A stretch of DNA of 29,219 bases from a virus. The translations under genes were made by a program, and so were the position numbers. Shown piece by piece: positions 6,556-25,452 of the stretch. How positions within the stretch are numbered: the first letter of the stretch is position 1; each line of letters starts with the position of its first letter. Below the pieces are notes generated by a model that was not told where the DNA came from, ran no database searches, and saw only the letters and a program-made list of their open reading frames with translations. The stretch covers positions 1 to 29,219 of the IMG/VR virus record IMGVR_UViG_3300027907_000038; one strand, written 5' to 3'.

Positions 6556-7632
6556 ATGGCGGATTATTCAGGGTATGGTATTCCAAGGTTGGATTTCAGC
6601 GCGCTCGGCAACCTGCCCGAGGACATGCGGCGGGCGCAATTATTCCAGCAGCAGCAGCAGTCGCTGGCGGCACGGCAGAAGACCTTGGCCGAGATCGCGG
6701 CCGGCGGCGAGGCCTTCGACTATGGGGCCGGAGCGAAGAGACTGCTCGGCGCGGGCGACTTCGAGGGCGGCCTGACGCTGCTCAAACTGGCCGACGAAAA
6801 GTTCAAGCGCGATCTGGAGGAGCGCAAGGTCAAGGTGCTGGAGGCAGCCGGCACGCGGAAGGAGGCGCCGGTCCTGCACGAGATTTTCGATCCCGCAACC
6901 GGCCTGCCGCAGAAGGCACTGATCGATCCGGTCACGGGTGCCATCCAGCCGATCGGCGGGACCAAGAAAGAGGTCGAGAAGCCGCGCCAGATGGGCTACG
7001 GCGACATTTCGAAAATGACCGAGGAGGGCGGCAAGCTGACCGAGGTGGCCGGGTTTGCCAATACGTTCCAAGATCGGTTCGCCGGCTACAAGAACCCCAC
7101 TGTGGGCAGTGCAGTCATGACCGCCGGCCGATTGCTGCCGCAGGATCTGGTCGGCAAGGACGTGGCGGAAGGGGCGGCGTGGTGGCAGGATTACAACAAG
7201 TATCGCGGCGTCGTGCGCAATGAATTGTATGGGGCAGCTTTGTCGAAGGGCGAGCGGCAGGATTTCGAGGCCGCCGACATCACGCCCGGCATGACTCCGG
7301 AGCAGATCAAGAAGAACCTCGCCAAGCAGGAGGAGATCGTCAAGCGGGGCGTCACCCGCAAGGCGGGCGCCCTGGTCAACGAAGGCTTCAACCCGGAGAC
7401 GATCGCGCGCGCCTACGGCGTCAAGCTGGAAGATCTTGGCGTACAGCCGAAAACGACGCCGCCGCGCGGGGGCGCCTCGGCACCGCGGACGACAGGGACA
7501 GGATCGGCGGCAGGGCGGCCGGCGCCCAACGAAGGGGCGGTCAAGTATCTTGAGCAGAACCCGCACACGCGGGATCAATTTGACGCCATGTACGGCGCCG
7601 GCATGTCGGATGTGGTTCTCGGTCAGCGGTAA
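6556..7632 (+). CDS. DNA ejection protein 2 (P22 gp20-like position)
   Basis: The 358-residue protein starts at the ATG at 6556; a GTG frame extension to 6517 would overlap the previous gene and lacks a ribosome site. The N-terminal third is helical and Gln-rich. The C-terminal half has the block FQDRFAGYKNPTVG, then WWQDYNKYRGVVRNELYGAALSKGE and ITPGMTPEQIKKNL. This pattern recurs in podovirus internal virion proteins, often with F or Y before GA. It ends in a Pro/Gly/Thr-rich linker and a short helix. Its stop overlaps the next ATG (TAATG). The ejection role is inferred from motif and position. Confidence 0.72.
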   Translation: MADYSGYGIPRLDFSALGNLPEDMRRAQLFQQQQQSLAARQKTLAEIAAGGEAFDYGAGAKRLLGAGDFEGGLTLLKLADEKFKRDLEERKVKVLEAAGTRKEAPVLHEIFDPATGLPQKALIDPVTGAIQPIGGTKKEVEKPRQMGYGDISKMTEEGGKLTEVAGFANTFQDRFAGYKNPTVGSAVMTAGRLLPQDLVGKDVAEGAAWWQDYNKYRGVVRNELYGAALSKGERQDFEAADITPGMTPEQIKKNLAKQEEIVKRGVTRKAGALVNEGFNPETIARAYGVKLEDLGVQPKTTPPRGGASAPRTTGTGSAAGRPAPNEGAVKYLEQNPHTRDQFDAMYGAGMSDVVLGQR

Positions 7633-10391
7633 TGGCCAACATCTACGAGCAATTTTTGGACGAGGGCGACGCGCCTCGCTCCACCATGTCCCCGCGTGAT
7701 CGCGAACTCGCCATCCGCACGGTGCTCGGCGAGGCGGCCGATCAGCCCGACGAGGGGCAGGCTGCGGTCGCGGCCGTGATCCGCAACCGGATGCAAGCCG
7801 GACGCTACGGCGGCGAGAATATCCCCGGCGTGGTCCTGGCGCGGCACCAGTTCGAGCCGTGGTCGACCCAGGCCGGCCGCAACCGCATGTACGGCTACGC
7901 GCCCGACAGCGAGCCCTACCAGCGCGCAGCGGCGGCCGTGGATCGCGTGTTCGGCGAGGGCTATGACCCTACCGGGGGAAGCACGCACTTCTTCTCCCCG
8001 ACCGCCCAGGCGGCACTGGGACGGCAACCGCCGCGGTGGGCGCAAGGCCAGCCGCTGACGATCGGCGGCCATGCCTTCTACGCGCCGGAGGGGCGGGTGG
8101 GCGCGGCACCGGGTGCGCAGCCGGTCGCCTACGCACCGGAAACCGTCCAGGCCGGGCCGTTCTCCTCGGCGGCATCTGCGGAACGGCCGGTTCCGCAAAC
8201 TCCGCAAACTCCGCAGATGGCGCAGGCTGGCGGCAACGTCTACGAACAGTTCGTCACGCCAACCCCGACTTTGCCTGCGGCGGGGGAAAACCCGTATGGG
8301 CAGTTTGCGCCGAGCGGTACCGAGCGGATCGATCCGGCCGCGCCGCGCTCGCCACTGCGTATCGAGGTCACACCCGAACAGCCCAAGCCCGCCGAGGGCG
8401 CCGGCTCCTCGCAGGGCGATGTCGGCCGGTTCACGGCACTGCTGCGCGGCGCCTCGTCCGGGGCGACATTCAATTTCGCCGACGAGCTCGCCGGTATCCT
8501 CAACAGCCCGGACTACATGGCCGGCCGCCAGGGCGAGATGGCGGGGCCGTTGCAGGCGATCGGCGGTCTGGCAAAGCTCGGCTACGAAACCCTGACCGGC
8601 TCGCCCGGTGAGGCGACGAAGGCCTACGAGCAGGCGCGCGATGCCGCCCGGCAGGAGCTCAAGACCGCCAAGGAGCAATATCCCGGCACGACGCTCGCCG
8701 GCGAGCTCGCCGGGGCGGTCGCGGTGCCGCTGCCCGGCGTGGCGGCGCTGCGCGGCGCCGGCATGGCCACACGGGCGGCAGGAAGCGCAGGGATCGGCGC
8801 TGGTGCGGGTGCACTGGCGGGGGCAGGGGAAGGCGAGACTGGCGCGGAACGCCTCTCCAAGGCCGCTACAGGGGCCGCGGTGGGGGGCGTGGTCGGTGGG
8901 GTTGCCTCGCCAGTCCTCGATGTGGCTACCAGGGCCGGTGGCAGGGCGCTCACAGAGGCCGGCCGATACCTGTTTCCCAATACAGATGCACGAGCCCTCA
9001 AGATCCTGCAGGGCGCGCAGGAGTCGGCCGAGAAGATCGATCCATCAGCCGCCACCCGCCTGACCGGCCAGCAGGTCGCCAGAACGCCCTCGGCGGCTGT
9101 CGTCGACATGCTCGGCGAGCCTGGACGAGCCGTTGCACGCTGGGTCGCCAATGCCTCGCCGGAAGCGCGCAACACGCTCAACCGGATGATCGATCCGCGG
9201 TTTGAAGGTCAGGCGGCGCGAGTCGTTGGATGGTTGAACAACGCCTTTCATTTTCCCAGTGCGACCGCCCAGCGCGAGGCTCTCGAGGCGGCCAAGAAGA
9301 CGGTGAACAGCGCCAACTACGAACGCGCCATGCGTGAGGGGGCGGATGGTTTGTGGTCTCCTAAACTGGAGCAATTGGCCGGTTCTCCCGCTGTCACCGC
9401 CGCCATGCAGCGCGCCAGCACGGCGTGGAAAGACGAGATGATCGCCGCCGGCCAAGGCGCGATGAACCCGCGCATCACGTTTACTCCGGACGGGCGGATG
9501 CAGATCGCGCGCGGACCAGGTGGCGTGCCAGTCTATCCCGATTTGCAATACTGGGATCTGGTTCGCCGGGAATTGAGCGATGCCATGCAGGCTGCAGGCG
9601 AGTATACGGCCGACGGCCGACGGCTCGGCGTGTTCGCCAGGCAGATGAATGCCGAGCTCGATCGTCTCGTTCCATCCTATGCGCAGGCACGGGCGGGGCA
9701 TGCTCACTTTGCCGGCGCCAAGGATGCGCTCGAGGCGGGGGAAAATTTCGTCCTGATGAAAGGGCAGAACGAGGAAGCCCGCCGCGCACTGGCGCGGATG
9801 TCGCCCACCGAGCGGCAATTGTTTCAGGACGGGTTCGTCTCGAAATATGTCGAGATGCTCAAGGAGCCGGGCGACCGCCGCAACATCCTCAACAAGATCG
9901 CCGAAAGCCCAGGGGCTCGGGAACGGCTCGAAATGGTGCTGGGACGGCAGAAATCCAATGAGCTGGAAGCCATGCTGCGGGTCGAGGGCATCATGGACCT
10001 GACGCGGTCGCAGACCCAGGGCAACTCGACCACGACACGGCAACTGATCGAGGCTGGTCTGGTGGCCACACAGGGTGGGGTCGGTGCGTACTATCAGGGG
10101 CTGGCCGATCCCGGCAACCTGGCGACAACCCTGATTGGCAGCGCCCTCGTCAAGCGCGGGCGCACGACGGATCAGCGCGTGGCGCAGAGGGTTGCCGAGA
10201 TGCTCGTCTCGCGTGACCCGGCGGTGATGCAGAAGGGGCTCAAGGTCATCGCACGCAACCAGGGTTTCATGGACGCGCTGCGTGGCCTCGACAAGCAGAT
10301 CGCCCGCATCAGTGGTCAGCAAGGCTCAGCCGTTCCTGGCGTGCAGTCGCTCGGCGTAGGCCGAGCAGAAGACCGCCAGCAACAGCAATAG
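7632..10391 (+). CDS. DNA ejection protein 3 with N-terminal SleB cell-wall hydrolase domain
   Basis: The 919-residue protein opens with a cell-wall hydrolase (SleB/Hydrolase_2) domain at about residues 24-150. It has the TVLGEAADQPDEGQAAVAAVI motif with presumed catalytic Glu34, then VV..RHQFEPW and YDPTGGSTHFF. A Pro-rich linker follows, with copies of an N-x-Y-E/G-Q-F motif at residues 3-8, 202-207 and 220-225. A Gly/Ala-rich hydrophobic section (about 260-440) resembles membrane-active ejection proteins, and a long helical region ends in four Gln residues. The probable role is to open peptidoglycan during entry and form part of the DNA conduit. It is the last of the ejection block. Confidence 0.82.
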   Translation: MANIYEQFLDEGDAPRSTMSPRDRELAIRTVLGEAADQPDEGQAAVAAVIRNRMQAGRYGGENIPGVVLARHQFEPWSTQAGRNRMYGYAPDSEPYQRAAAAVDRVFGEGYDPTGGSTHFFSPTAQAALGRQPPRWAQGQPLTIGGHAFYAPEGRVGAAPGAQPVAYAPETVQAGPFSSAASAERPVPQTPQTPQMAQAGGNVYEQFVTPTPTLPAAGENPYGQFAPSGTERIDPAAPRSPLRIEVTPEQPKPAEGAGSSQGDVGRFTALLRGASSGATFNFADELAGILNSPDYMAGRQGEMAGPLQAIGGLAKLGYETLTGSPGEATKAYEQARDAARQELKTAKEQYPGTTLAGELAGAVAVPLPGVAALRGAGMATRAAGSAGIGAGAGALAGAGEGETGAERLSKAATGAAVGGVVGGVASPVLDVATRAGGRALTEAGRYLFPNTDARALKILQGAQESAEKIDPSAATRLTGQQVARTPSAAVVDMLGEPGRAVARWVANASPEARNTLNRMIDPRFEGQAARVVGWLNNAFHFPSATAQREALEAAKKTVNSANYERAMREGADGLWSPKLEQLAGSPAVTAAMQRASTAWKDEMIAAGQGAMNPRITFTPDGRMQIARGPGGVPVYPDLQYWDLVRRELSDAMQAAGEYTADGRRLGVFARQMNAELDRLVPSYAQARAGHAHFAGAKDALEAGENFVLMKGQNEEARRALARMSPTERQLFQDGFVSKYVEMLKEPGDRRNILNKIAESPGARERLEMVLGRQKSNELEAMLRVEGIMDLTRSQTQGNSTTTRQLIEAGLVATQGGVGAYYQGLADPGNLATTLIGSALVKRGRTTDQRVAQRVAEMLVSRDPAVMQKGLKVIARNQGFMDALRGLDKQIARISGQQGSAVPGVQSLGVGRAEDRQQQQ

Positions 10392-17994: not shown

Positions 17995-18633
17995 TCAGCC
18001 TGCCATTGCCAGGGGCTCGGCGAGCGCGCGCAGCCGGGCGAGCTTCTCGTCCAACTCGCCGAGGAAGTCGCGGACCATTTCCTCTAGCTCCTCGATCCGC
18101 TCGTCGTTGCGGTCGACGCGCTGCACGAACAACCGCATATGCTCAGGCATGCGTGGATCATAACTGACGAAGTCACACCATTGCCGGCCGGAGCATGCCA
18201 TCTGCCACTGCATCTGCGTGTGATAGCGCAAGTCGATGGCTTGCCCGAGCAACGTCTCAATATGCTTTGCGCTCTGTGGACACTTGATCTCGAGGAGTCC
18301 ATCGTCGCTGATTAGTCCGTCTGGCGAGGCGTGCGTGTTGGGGATCGATGGATGTCGGACCAGTCCGATTTCCTCCACCGTCACGTTGCGCCAGAATTCA
18401 TAAGCCGTGCGCGCCTCCGGCTCGGTGTCGATGCCGTTCTGCATGGCGGCGTTGACGTAGGTATCTTGCGGAACGCCAGTCAGCCGTTCGACGATTTTGC
18501 GGGCCATTACATTGGCGCGCGAGGCGCCCCACCCGGTTTTCGTGCGCGCGATAGCCTCATACACCTCGGACGCGCCGAGGCTGCCGAGACGCGCGGCAAA
18601 CCATTCCGGCGAGCGTTGAACGAGTTCGATCAT
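17995..18633 (-). CDS. YqaJ-type (lambda exonuclease fold) recombination exonuclease
   Basis: The 212-residue protein carries the YqaJ viral recombinase signature: QRSPEWFAARLGSLGAS at residues 6-22, GIDTEPEARTAYE (67-79), SPDGLI with D105, and LLEIKCP with E115 and K117 as metal and catalytic residues. A C-terminal helical stretch with an acidic coiled segment (residues 170-205) follows. It would chew one strand of double-stranded ends to give 3' tails for its neighbour, the ERF annealing protein. It overlaps the ERF stop by four bases (ATGA). Confidence 0.88.
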   Translation of the reverse strand: MIELVQRSPEWFAARLGSLGASEVYEAIARTKTGWGASRANVMARKIVERLTGVPQDTYVNAAMQNGIDTEPEARTAYEFWRNVTVEEIGLVRHPSIPNTHASPDGLISDDGLLEIKCPQSAKHIETLLGQAIDLRYHTQMQWQMACSGRQWCDFVSYDPRMPEHMRLFVQRVDRNDERIEELEEMVRDFLGELDEKLARLRALAEPLAMAG

Positions 18634-19418
18634 GTTTTTGCCATTGCCTTCTTCTTGTTCTGCAGCGCGGTCTTGGCGCGGTCGAACGTGATCGCTGGCA
18701 GATCCTCGATCAGGTCTATTTTGTAATACTGACAGAAGGCCTTCACATTAGCTCCACCGCGCAGGCCGGCCTCGACCGCGATGTCCTGCAGGAGCACCCG
18801 CAATTCGTCGGCCTGCGCTTCACTGATAGAGCCGCTCTCTGTCTGCGTGTTCCTGTGGCTGGCGGCGTTGCCGTCGTCGTCATCGCCTTCGGCGATGTTG
18901 AAGATCATCTTGAGCAGCCCGCGGCGGCCGTAGGTGACGGCGGACATGGTGGCGTGGGTCTTTGTCATCACATCATTGCCGCGCGCACCCTTGCCATCGG
19001 CCGGCATGTCGAGGTGATAGGTGCGGTTGTGGCCGCCGGCGGCGACGAACGCGAGCACGCGCACGCAGTTTTCCGGCGCCTCGTCGCCGGTGTCGAACGA
19101 GATGTTGAAACCGTGTTTCGTGTAGATTGGCCGCAGCGCACGGTCGATCGCGGCGAACGAGGCATAGCGGCTGCGCGTCTGTGGGTTTGAACTGTCGGCG
19201 GACACCCGTGTCATTTCGGACTGCGCTGCTGACATGGCGTCGTTGAACCGGGTCAACGCTTCCTGGGCGACGATGCGCTCGCGCATCTCCAGAAGCTTTT
19301 CCATTTTGCCGAGATCGGCCGCTGGATCGCGTGCCAGCCGCTCAATCAGGTTGATGAGCGCCGCGCTTTCGGACGCCGGCTGCGGGATGTTCTCGGACAT
19401 CTTGGCGATCTGGTTCAT
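18630..19418 (-). CDS. ERF-family single-strand annealing protein
   Basis: The 262-residue protein is an ERF-type recombinase. A helical N-terminus is followed by the conserved core FNDAMSAAQSEM, a YASFAAIDRALRPIYTKHGFNISF block, then HNRTYHLDMPADGKG and the family hallmark THATMSAVTYGRRGLLKMIFNIA (shown here as a motif that continues past 20 residues: T-H-A-x-x-S-A-x-T-Y-G-R-R). The acidic DDDDG linker leads to a helical C-terminal domain. ERF anneals complementary strands and, with the exonuclease downstream, forms a two-part recombination module. It overlaps the upstream gene's stop (ATGA). Confidence 0.88.
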   Translation of the reverse strand: MNQIAKMSENIPQPASESAALINLIERLARDPAADLGKMEKLLEMRERIVAQEALTRFNDAMSAAQSEMTRVSADSSNPQTRSRYASFAAIDRALRPIYTKHGFNISFDTGDEAPENCVRVLAFVAAGGHNRTYHLDMPADGKGARGNDVMTKTHATMSAVTYGRRGLLKMIFNIAEGDDDDGNAASHRNTQTESGSISEAQADELRVLLQDIAVEAGLRGGANVKAFCQYYKIDLIEDLPAITFDRAKTALQNKKKAMAKT

Positions 19419-20325: not shown

Positions 20326-20721
20326 TTACCAGCTCCTCGGCATGATGGTTGCGGTGGAGGTGAGGGCGTCGCGGATCGCGTAGTATGCGCGCGGGTTGTT
20401 CCTGCGCAGCCAGCGTAGCAGGATCAGCGCCTCCAGATGGCGGCCGAGTTGATATGGGTTAGGCGCGATTTTGGCTTTCTCTAGCTGGCGGAATAACTGT
20501 AGGGATATGATCGCGTCGTGGATGTTGAACTCGTCCTTCTTCATCTGTGCGGCAATATCGCCGTAGCGGGCGCGAGCCTCCAGCGAACGCGGGCCGATAC
20601 CACACATCCGGCGCGAATTGCTCTTCTGCACTCCCCACTTGTTGGAGAAGGCCCGGTGCAGCGCCAGGATCGTGCGCGCCATCGCCGGGCTGGCGGGGAC
20701 GACGTTGTCGTAGCGGATCAT
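20326..20721 (-). CDS. Unknown helical operon protein
   Basis: The 131-residue protein is preceded by AGGAGCGGCGC, and its ATG overlaps the preceding stop (ATGA). It is basic and predominantly helical (AMARTILALHRAFSNKW, HDAIISLQLFRQLEKAK, LEALILLRWLRRNN). The pattern could suit a DNA-binding or DNA-modification accessory protein, but I recognise no family. Confidence 0.65.
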   Translation of the reverse strand: MIRYDNVVPASPAMARTILALHRAFSNKWGVQKSNSRRMCGIGPRSLEARARYGDIAAQMKKDEFNIHDAIISLQLFRQLEKAKIAPNPYQLGRHLEALILLRWLRRNNPRAYYAIRDALTSTATIMPRSW

Positions 20722-21012: not shown

Positions 21013-21144
21013 TCAGTGGCAGGTGGTGGTGCAGGTGCGATAGCCGGGCGGGCCGTAGCAATTCGTCGTGCAGGTTCGGAATTGCGCCTCGGCCAAGCCG
21101 ACGGTGCTGGCCAGGAGCATCAAGGTCAGGATCAGGTGTTTCAT
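21013..21144 (-). CDS. Secreted Cys-rich microprotein, first gene of the leftward operon
   Basis: ATG 21144 (GGAGACTGAGCG upstream) opens 43 codons. Residues 1-20 are a clean signal peptide (LILTLMLLASTVG, ending AEA). The mature 23 residues are a duplicated motif, RTCTTNC then YGPPGY then RTCTTTC-H, giving four cysteines and probably two disulfides in the periplasm. It is the first gene behind the leftward early promoter, so it should be made early and in quantity. Similar tiny CTT.C peptides occur in Rhizobiales genomes without known function; superinfection exclusion or envelope binding is speculation. Confidence 0.65.
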   Translation of the reverse strand: MKHLILTLMLLASTVGLAEAQFRTCTTNCYGPPGYRTCTTTCH

Positions 21145-21171
21145 CGCTCAGTCTCCGTTTTGATGGTCCCC

Positions 21172-21199
21172 AGTATACATATAGTTGACAGCGCGTCAA
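21172..21199 (-). promoter_or_regulatory. Leftward early promoter
   Basis: On the minus strand, -35 TTGACG (complement of 21194-21199) and -10 TATACT (complement of 21172-21177) are 16 bases apart. This places the start of transcription near 21165, about 20 bases before the Cys-rich peptide ATG. The -35 lies inside the operator palindromes, so the neighbouring regulator could repress it. Confidence 0.65.
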
Positions 21200-21211
21200 G
21201 ACACTCTTGAC
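21185..21211. promoter_or_regulatory. Overlapping palindromic operators
   Basis: Two inverted repeats share a half-site: TTGAC-N5-GTCAA at 21185-21199, and GTCAAGA-CAC-TCTTGAC at 21195-21211, the latter with perfect 7-base arms. They cover the -35 elements of both divergent promoters. This is the expected binding region for the repressor encoded just to the right. Confidence 0.65.
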
Positions 21212-21235
21212 AATTTTTTGCTCTGGCCCTATCAT
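21207..21235 (+). promoter_or_regulatory. Rightward promoter of the repressor gene
   Basis: A consensus TTGACA (21207-21212), 17-base spacer and TATCAT (21230-21235) predict transcription starting at about 21242-21243. That is at or within a base of the repressor ATG, so the mRNA would be leaderless. The -35 overlaps the right operator palindrome. Confidence 0.65.
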
Positions 21236-21242
21236 TTTGCGC

Positions 21243-21452
21243 ATGAGCCCGCTGGATCGCCTCCGCAAAACTGTCGCCAAATATCGGTTCGAATCTGATT
21301 TTGCGATCGAGTGCGGCGTCAGCAGGCAATACATGAACCTCATTTTGAAGGGAGAGCGCGGCATGAGCTGGCCCCTGGCCAAGCGTGTAAGCGCGGTGAC
21401 CGGCCTCCCGCCTGCTGAACTCATGGAAATCGGCCGCGATCGCGTCGCCTGA
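21243..21452 (+). CDS. Small HTH repressor (Cro/CI-like)
   Basis: ATG 21243 gives 69 residues: LDRLRKTVAKY, then a helix-turn-helix (FAIECGVSRQYMNLILKGERG, of which GVSRQYMNLIL is the recognition part) and a closing helix LAKRVSAVTGLPPAEL. It has the single-domain size of Cro-type regulators and no dimerisation or protease domain. It lies next to overlapping operators between divergent promoters, so it probably controls both transcripts. The frame extends to a TTG at 21207, but that overlaps the -35. No Shine-Dalgarno sequence precedes the ATG, which agrees with leaderless translation. Confidence 0.78.
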   Translation: MSPLDRLRKTVAKYRFESDFAIECGVSRQYMNLILKGERGMSWPLAKRVSAVTGLPPAELMEIGRDRVA

Positions 21453-21454
21453 AT

Positions 21455-21468
21455 TTGATCCAGATCAA
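21455..21468. promoter_or_regulatory. FNR/FixK-type box upstream of the replication genes
   Basis: TTGATCCAGATCAA is a perfect palindromic match to the TTGAT-N4-ATCAA consensus of FNR/FixK regulators. It lies 58 bases before the GTG of the DnaA-like gene. Two -10-like sequences follow: TAAAAG (21489-21494), placing the box near -40, and TAAAAT (21509-21514), placing it near -60. Both are workable activator positions. Binding itself is unproven. Confidence 0.5.
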
Positions 21469-21525
21469 TTTTGTTGCGTTCTCCCGTCTAAAAGTACGCT
21501 TTTTCGGCTAAAATGGAGGGATATC

Positions 21526-22110
21526 GTGTCTTTTGAGGACGAGATCCTGGCCGAGGCGAAGGCGCGGCGTGAGCGGCTCGAACACCCACCGGGCGGCCAC
21601 AGTTCCACCGACCTGGACATCCTATCCGCCCCGGCGGCGCGGGCGCTGGCAATCGCCCGGATAGAGGCCGAGGCAGAGGATGCACGGCGGGAGGCCGAGC
21701 AGTTTGCGGCGGCCCAGATGGAGGATCGGCGTCGAGAAGCGGTGGCGAGGGCCAAGGAGAGAGCCAGGGCCAAGGCGGAAATGGTGCAGCGGACCGAGCC
21801 ACGATTGTGCAAGCCGCCGCCCAAATTGCGGGAGATCGCCAAGGTAGTGGCTGAGCACTACGGCGTGACGGTGCTTGAACTAGTGGGAAGCGGGCGAAAA
21901 ACTCGTGTCACGCGCCCGCGGCAGGTATTTTGCTATCTCGCTCGCAAGCTCACGTTCAAATCGTTTCCCGACCTCGGCCGGGCACTGGGCGGGCGTGATC
22001 ACACCACAACTTTATGGGCATTTAATAAAATTGCTACACTAATAGTTGTAGACCAGAAACTTGCTGCAGAGGTCGAATCCATTTGCGCCAAATTGGGGGG
22101 GCTGCGGTGA
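21526..22110 (+). CDS. Replication protein with DnaA domain IV (DNA-binding), no ATPase
   Basis: The 194-residue protein starts at GTG 21526 behind GGAGGGATATC. Residues 35-90 form an Arg/Glu/Ala-rich coiled coil. Residues 100-170 match the C-terminal DnaA domain: IAKVVAEHYGVTVLELV, TRPRQVFCYLARKLT, FPDLGRALGGRDHTT. GGRDHTT at 155-161 is the DnaA-box-reading signature. The AAA+ motor of DnaA is absent. It may bind host or phage DnaA boxes to direct or redirect replication. A GTGA overlap joins it to the AP2-HNH gene. Confidence 0.8.
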   Translation: MSFEDEILAEAKARRERLEHPPGGHSSTDLDILSAPAARALAIARIEAEAEDARREAEQFAAAQMEDRRREAVARAKERARAKAEMVQRTEPRLCKPPPKLREIAKVVAEHYGVTVLELVGSGRKTRVTRPRQVFCYLARKLTFKSFPDLGRALGGRDHTTTLWAFNKIATLIVVDQKLAAEVESICAKLGGLR

Positions 22111-22688
22111 AATCCCGTATGAAATTTCGCCCACTACCTTCACAGGAGACGGTGCGGCGAAACCTTCATTATGATCCGCTGTCCGGGCTGTTTGTGTGGC
22201 TTGTTCAGACCAGGGGATGGGATCGAAGAGGTTCTCCCGCCGGAACCATCAGTAGAGGATATGTGAAGATCGGTATTGAGGGCCAACAATATCCGGCTGC
22301 TCGATTGGCGTGGGTTTATGTCTATGGGGCAATTCCTGAGGGCATGGAAATAGATCACAAGGACGGTAATCCGTCCAACAACAGGCTGTCCAATTTGCGG
22401 CTAGCGACATCGTCTCAGCAAAAGCAAAATAAAAAGGTTCAATCCAACAACAAATCCGGCCTCAAGGGCGCCTACTACCATGCCATTCACAAGGGAAAGA
22501 AATGGCGAACCCAGATCAAGGTCGGGGATCGACTGATCTTCCTTGGGTATTTCCATAGGCCAGAAGAAGCACACGCCGCCTATCGCGCTGCCGAGCAAAA
22601 ATTTTTCGGCGAATTTGCGCGACGCCTCACCGATCCCGAGCTCGCTGACGAAATTGCCTACATCCGCAGGACGCTGGAGGGAACATGA
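22107..22688 (+). CDS. AP2-HNH homing-type endonuclease, copy 1
   Basis: GTG 22107 overlaps the preceding stop (GTGA) and gives 193 residues. An N-terminal beta segment (YDPLSGLFVW, then GYVKIGI.GQQYPAARLAWVY) leads to an HNH core with IDHKDGNPSNNRLSNLRLAT (H84, N92). Residues 117-172 are an AP2 DNA-binding domain (SGLKGAYYHA, W, FLGYFHRPEEAHAAYRAAE, FFGEFAR). This architecture is typical of free-standing phage homing endonucleases that copy themselves between genomes. A second copy lies near 26.2 kb. The next gene starts at an ATGA overlap. Confidence 0.85.
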   Translation: MKSRMKFRPLPSQETVRRNLHYDPLSGLFVWLVQTRGWDRRGSPAGTISRGYVKIGIEGQQYPAARLAWVYVYGAIPEGMEIDHKDGNPSNNRLSNLRLATSSQQKQNKKVQSNNKSGLKGAYYHAIHKGKKWRTQIKVGDRLIFLGYFHRPEEAHAAYRAAEQKFFGEFARRLTDPELADEIAYIRRTLEGT

Positions 22689-25165: not shown

Positions 25166-25452
25166 TTGGCGCTCTGGTACAAATTCTATTTGCAGTTGTG
25201 CTGATGGGCGTGATTTGGTGGGGCGTGCAGAAGCTGCTGCCGTTGATTCCGATGGGGGAGCCATTTCGGACGATTGTGTACGTACTGTGTGTGATAATTT
25301 TGGTAATTATTGTGATGTGGATAATTTGGCAGCTGCTGGTGATTTCCGGGCTTGTGAGTGGCCGGCCCTTTCGGCTCGGAGGAGGAATCGCAGATAGAAC
25401 GATTGCCGCCATTTCCGCCTCGCCCGCCCGACATCTGCAAGGATGGGGGTAG
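25162..25452 (+). CDS. Two-TM membrane protein (Thivi_2564-like)
   Basis: The 96-residue protein has two long hydrophobic helices (residues 3-28, ALVQILFAVVLMGVIWWGVQ region; residues 36-65, TIVYVLCVIILVIIVMWIIW), with a short LPLIPMGEPFR loop between them. This resembles the Thivi_2564 family of small membrane proteins, common in phages and prophages of Proteobacteria. The C-terminal 30 residues are low in features. It could act in lysis (holin-like) but stands apart from the endolysin. It is coupled to the preceding gene by ATGA. Confidence 0.65.
   Translation: MIGALVQILFAVVLMGVIWWGVQKLLPLIPMGEPFRTIVYVLCVIILVIIVMWIIWQLLVISGLVSGRPFRLGGGIADRTIAAISASPARHLQGWG

Follow-up and report, generated by a model that had tools for sequence, protein, structure and literature searches.

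The question raised by this locus is whether a phage replication operon can be governed by a box through which its host responds to oxygen. Soils and root nodules differ above all in their oxygen supply, and a limited literature search found no example of a host FNR/FixK box directly controlling the replication operon of a phage. The window analysed here, 29,219 bases in all, is a phage contig of 29.2 kb. It encodes head, connector, tail and terminase proteins, and its minus strand carries a recombination module of the ERF/YqaJ type. In that module (17995-19418, minus strand) the gene for the ERF single-strand annealing protein adjoins that of the YqaJ exonuclease, and the stretch is 100% identical in another viral contig, IMGVR_UViG_3300009094_000270 (L190). 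Contigs encoding identical proteins come from samples 3300009094 and 3300050511. Elsewhere in the window, positions 7632-10391 encode a 919-residue protein in which an endolysin-like N-terminal part (residues 21-129) is joined to phrog_5880, a phage protein that is conserved but has no known function.

The box and its neighbours in the phage

The sequence TTGATCCAGATCAA at 21455-21468 is, as the preliminary description held, an exact match to TTGAT-N4-ATCAA, the consensus of the anaerobox of FNR, FnrN and FixK (PMC7888657). It lies upstream of a gene for a DnaA-domain protein whose GTG start codon is at 21526; the upstream location was described correctly, and the distance, which had been put at 58 bases, is 57. 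Within the 29,219 bases this is the only match to the consensus with no or one mismatch, the next seven best having two mismatches each. A first-order Markov model predicts 0.016 perfect boxes per window and 0.0011 in the roughly 1.6 kb of non-coding DNA that the window holds, and the empirical rate, three perfect boxes in the 1.37 Mb of 41 related phage records, comes to 0.064 per window. A scan of the genome and of related phages for the consensus had been proposed as a check on the box; the site is indeed unique in the window, but in the related phages all three boxes lie inside genes and none outside them.

It should be pointed out that the size of the palindrome is ordinary. The window contains 56 perfect palindromes of the 5-N4-5 form, and the 73-base gap in which the box lies, when shuffled, contains one in 6.6% of trials. 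What is rare is a sequence of the TTGATCCAGATCAA type in non-coding DNA, as opposed to palindromes generally. A reversed-pattern control for TTGAT-N4-ATCAA was set aside as a measure of background because it is probably depressed by the scarcity of CTAG in such genomes.

On the upstream side the box is preceded by the gene for a 69-residue regulator of the Cro/CI helix-turn-helix type (21243-21452, plus strand), whose stop codon lies 2 bases before the box. The assertion that the gap offers no other explanation for the palindrome was accordingly too strong. AlphaFold predicts the regulator to be a five-helix XRE domain (pLDDT 90), and Foldseek likens it to SinR, HigA, 434 Cro and P22 c2, with E-values that are all modest. 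A sigma-70-like promoter, TTGACA-17-TATCAT (21207-21235, plus strand), scores 11 of 12 against the sigma-70 pattern and precedes the rightward operon of the helix-turn-helix, DnaA-domain and replication genes. Its transcript would be nearly leaderless, starting almost at the ATG at 21243, and a promoter predicted to be this strong does not need the box to drive the replication gene. The leftward operon has a sigma-70-like promoter of its own, TTGACG-16-TATACT (21172-21199, minus strand). The divergent control region (21144-21242) thus holds two opposed promoters of this kind, together with TTGACAGCGCGTCAA and GTCAAGACACTCTTGAC, two TTGAC palindromes that overlap. The former (TTGAC-N5-GTCAA, 21185-21199, with no strand assigned) is a candidate operator of the phage regulator.

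In the gap of 73 bases that separates the Cro-like gene from the DnaA-domain gene come, in order, the box, a -10-like sequence and a ribosome-binding site, and the start codon follows. The box itself is given no strand. The putative -10 sequence TAAAAG (21489-21494, plus strand), recognised by its spacing, lies 20 bp past the box and would place a transcription start near 21500-21501. A second candidate, TAAAAT (21509-21514, plus strand), lies 40 bp past the box, and with it the centre of the box would fall at about -59.5, a class I-like position. The ribosome-binding site GGAGGG (21515-21520, plus strand) follows.

The gene downstream (21526-22110, plus strand) encodes a 194-residue protein with a C-terminal DnaA domain IV (PF08299, residues 103-169) that is about 40-50% identical to domain IV of host DnaA. 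Domain IV is the only part of DnaA that is present, behind a charged and probably helical N-terminus, and the protein could compete for DnaA boxes or load at them instead of serving as a full initiator. An HNH_3 endonuclease gene (22083-22688) comes directly after it. The same pair is found in L098, where the HNH protein is 62% identical but the DnaA domain only 34%, which suggests a mobile gene of the homing type at that spot.

The same 14-mer in the likely hosts

The terminase relatives of this phage in bacterial genomes come mostly from Hyphomicrobiales (a Bradyrhizobiaceae bacterium, several Rhizobium, Mesorhizobium and Ancylobacter), and because these relatives are prophages there, we infer that the likely hosts are Hyphomicrobiales, i.e., Rhizobium-like bacteria. 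TTGAT-N4-ATCAA occurs 1,443 times in 150 Hyphomicrobiales genomes. The exact 14-mer of the phage makes up 87 of these 1,443 perfect boxes (6.0%, where equal use of all centres would give 0.8%), and its centre, CCAG, is over-represented about 8-fold among the host boxes; this bias in composition is an independent point in favour of reading the phage sequence as a host box. Half of the host copies examined (15 of 30) are intergenic according to a crude gene caller. Five of the nine neighbouring genes tested encode COX1-type oxidases (ccoN/fixN) and one encodes a Crp/Fnr protein. This last protein, from R. leguminosarum, has the N-terminal cysteine cluster CRSCQARHGVVC and the recognition helix ETVSR (ETVSRQM), and by its sequence it is FnrN. 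In the R. leguminosarum fnrN promoter (L268, 2487-2620) a pair of perfect anaeroboxes lies 32 bp apart and the phage 14-mer is the distal member, and a two-box arrangement with an activating distal box has been described for fnrN (PMC7888657).

Judged by the genes that it precedes, TTGATCCAGATCAA is letter for letter a host anaerobox of the working type, and because the identical 14-mer stands before host ccoN/fixN and fnrN, the phage carries a host-type box. The claim of the preliminary description that FNR/FixK reads the box in the host gains from these positions and from the presence of an FnrN-like protein (called at E <= 1e-30) in 28 of 61 sampled Hyphomicrobiales genomes, a share below half that also tells against it. 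It gains nothing from the 16 phage relatives with a DnaA-domain gene, none of which has the box before that gene.

The spacing downstream of the box calls for a closer comparison. The distance expected from box to -10 sequence is about 20-22 bp for class II and about 42 bp for class I activation. Among 30 host copies, a -10-like sequence most often starts 22 bases past the box (in 10 of them), and ccoN promoters read TTGATCCAGATCAA-N22-TAGCAA (L251, L252, L254); the phage box has no -10-like sequence at offset 22. The box had been judged to be correctly placed for class I or class II activation, and the -10-like elements are present, but they start at 20 and 40 rather than at the host mode of 22. 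The objection that the phage spacing is plainly wrong by 2 bp is softened by the mapped start sites of R. leguminosarum, where activating boxes are found at -32 to -34 and that of fixGHIS at -32 (PMC7888657). By our reading of the fnrN promoter these positions would correspond to offsets of about 20-22. The phage spacing of 20, equivalent to about -32 as in fixGHIS, appears compatible with activation, at the edge of the range and inside it, because the R. leguminosarum boxes span -32 to -34.

The reading that we favour, tentatively and at somewhat under an even chance, is that the box is a site for host FnrN or FixK. As oxygen falls, the FnrN/FixK dimer of a Hyphomicrobiales host would bind TTGATCCAGATCAA and recruit RNA polymerase to TAAAAG (21489-21494), and a transcript from near 21500 would then enter the DnaA-domain and replication genes, adding to what the main early promoter (21207-21235) supplies by read-through. 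The host, the binding, the sign of its effect (either activation or an obstacle to read-through) and selection for the site are inferences. Binding of host FnrN/FixK at TTGATCCAGATCAA is rather probable, given an active regulator in the host. A selected oxygen response through the box is less likely than binding and is put forward as a possibility. We are a little more doubtful still that a phage of soil Alphaproteobacteria took over host FnrN/FixK in order to time its replication operon or raise its expression, and thereby made infection or induction depend on oxygen, e.g., in a microaerobic soil or a root nodule.

Competing explanations and the phage relatives

A chance origin, which we consider rather unlikely, would make the box a palindrome without a regulatory role, with the operon read from 21207-21235 through the Cro-like gene and any binding of host FnrN/FixK having no selected effect. 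The phages lend this explanation its strength. The related phages have about 2 perfect boxes per Mb, all of them in genes, and hunting for any known box over many windows yields such matches. The exact 14-mer is intergenic in 5 of 120 viral contigs (4%), a set that is not restricted to alphaproteobacterial phages, and the control palindrome GTATTCCAGAATAC in 4 of 120, with a non-coding background of 5%; the same crude greedy gene caller was applied alike to every set. The viral copies have no preference for non-coding DNA, and there is no sign that phages at large, in this set wider than the alphaproteobacterial phages, use the 14-mer. Conservation is not seen either, as TTGAY-N4-RTCAA is found within 500 bases before the DnaA-domain gene in 0 of 16 relatives. 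This absence is weak evidence against function, because none of the 16 has the regulator gene or the gap in common with our phage. Scans with the DnaA-domain and helix-turn-helix proteins found no close relatives. The exonuclease scan led to IMGVR_UViG_3300009094_000270, in which the neighbouring genes are identical and which ends near window position 20540, before the site; a scan with the gene at 20326-20721 returned the same contig, and no sequence covering the box site was found in the viral collection. What stands against chance is the expectation of about 0.001 boxes per window in non-coding DNA, the CCAG centre, which is the one over-represented about 8-fold in the host boxes, and the presence of a -10-like sequence and a ribosome-binding site at workable distances downstream.

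The Cro-like gene next to the box brings in another explanation, one that we regard as improbable: the box could be an operator of the phage's own regulator (21243-21452), a repressor that would sit on TTGAY-type palindromes at TTGACAGCGCGTCAA and behind its own gene and stop the transcription of the replication genes, the resemblance to an FNR box being a half-site coincidence. There are only four TTGA-N4..8-TCAA palindromes in the 29-kb window, and two of them, TTGACAGCGCGTCAA and the box, flank the regulator gene; TTGACAGCGCGTCAA also overlaps the leftward -35 sequence, and the predicted fold of the regulator is like those of 434 Cro and P22 c2. Operators of the 434 type are 14 bp long, with conserved outer ends. 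However, the two palindromes differ by one base in spacing (N5 and N4), which dimeric repressors seldom tolerate, and the upstream one is partly accounted for by the -35 hexamers. An operator would also not predict the exact FNR consensus or the centre typical of the hosts, and no regulator homologues usable for operator footprinting were found among the phages, plasmids and Hyphomicrobiales genomes searched. It is very improbable that the box is a DnaA-type site, TGATCCAGA at 21456-21464, bound by host DnaA or by the phage DnaA-domain protein in autoregulation of its own gene or at an origin. The site matches the Caulobacter DnaA box TGATCCACA at 8 of 9 bases (PMC4285127), and the gene downstream encodes a DnaA domain IV, but five of the nine bases are already fixed by the FNR box and the palindrome is left unexplained. 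Set beside the DnaA box in the form TTWTNCACA or the alphaproteobacterial TGATCCACA, it was rejected: its one mismatch sits in the conserved ACA end, and there is no cluster of DnaA boxes around it, the single consensus box of the whole window being at 25316. We give still less credence to an RNA element, in which a weak hairpin and U-run behind the Cro-like gene would act as a terminator or attenuator. A TTGAT/ATCAA stem followed by TTTTGTT does come right after the stop codon, but its fold of -5.3 kcal/mol (z -0.79) is no better than that of shuffled sequences, the terminator scan did not report the site, and there was no Rfam match. An intrinsic terminator, which would have a stable stem rich in G+C and a T run behind it, was rejected on the same fold and scan.

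If the box is a host FnrN/FixK site, it offers a concrete and mutable target of 14 bases for testing how a phage reads the respiratory state of its host. If it is not, the locus is a lesson on how much trust a perfect match to a short consensus deserves: the exact sequence is a host box of the working type, and the phages overall give no sign of using it.

Comparison with known boxes and operators

Among phage systems, the operators of the 434 type resemble this locus in having a 14-bp palindrome close to a Cro-like gene, whose product shares the same fold. Their sequence, however, is unrelated to the box, and the phage lacks a matched set of equally spaced operators.

The Fnr regulon of Sphingopyxis granuli has a consensus, TTGAc/t-N4-g/aTCAA, that resembles the phage box, and its class II boxes are centred at -40.5 to -42.5, with one box at -60.5 (PMC7713065). 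That regulon consists of host genes only, and its positions come from mapped start sites, whereas those in the phage were read from the sequence.

The anaeroboxes of fixNOQP/ccoN in Hyphomicrobiales (L251, L252, L254, L259, L262) are closer, with the identical 14-mer in front of the gene. In three of them (L251, L252, L254) the -10-like sequence is a conserved TAGCAA that begins 22 bases past the box, unlike in the phage. These boxes are also conserved across species and have an established function in rhizobia, in contrast to the phage box.

The distal anaerobox of R. leguminosarum fnrN (PMC7888657; L268) has the identical 14-mer as well, on the other strand and again before the gene, and a -10-like sequence about 20-22 bp downstream of the box, similar to the arrangement in the phage. 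There are two boxes 32 bp apart in fnrN and one in the phage, and the -10 sequence is at 22 in the former and at 20 in the latter. While the R. leguminosarum box drives the oxygen sensor of the host, the same 14 bases in the phage stand before a replication gene.
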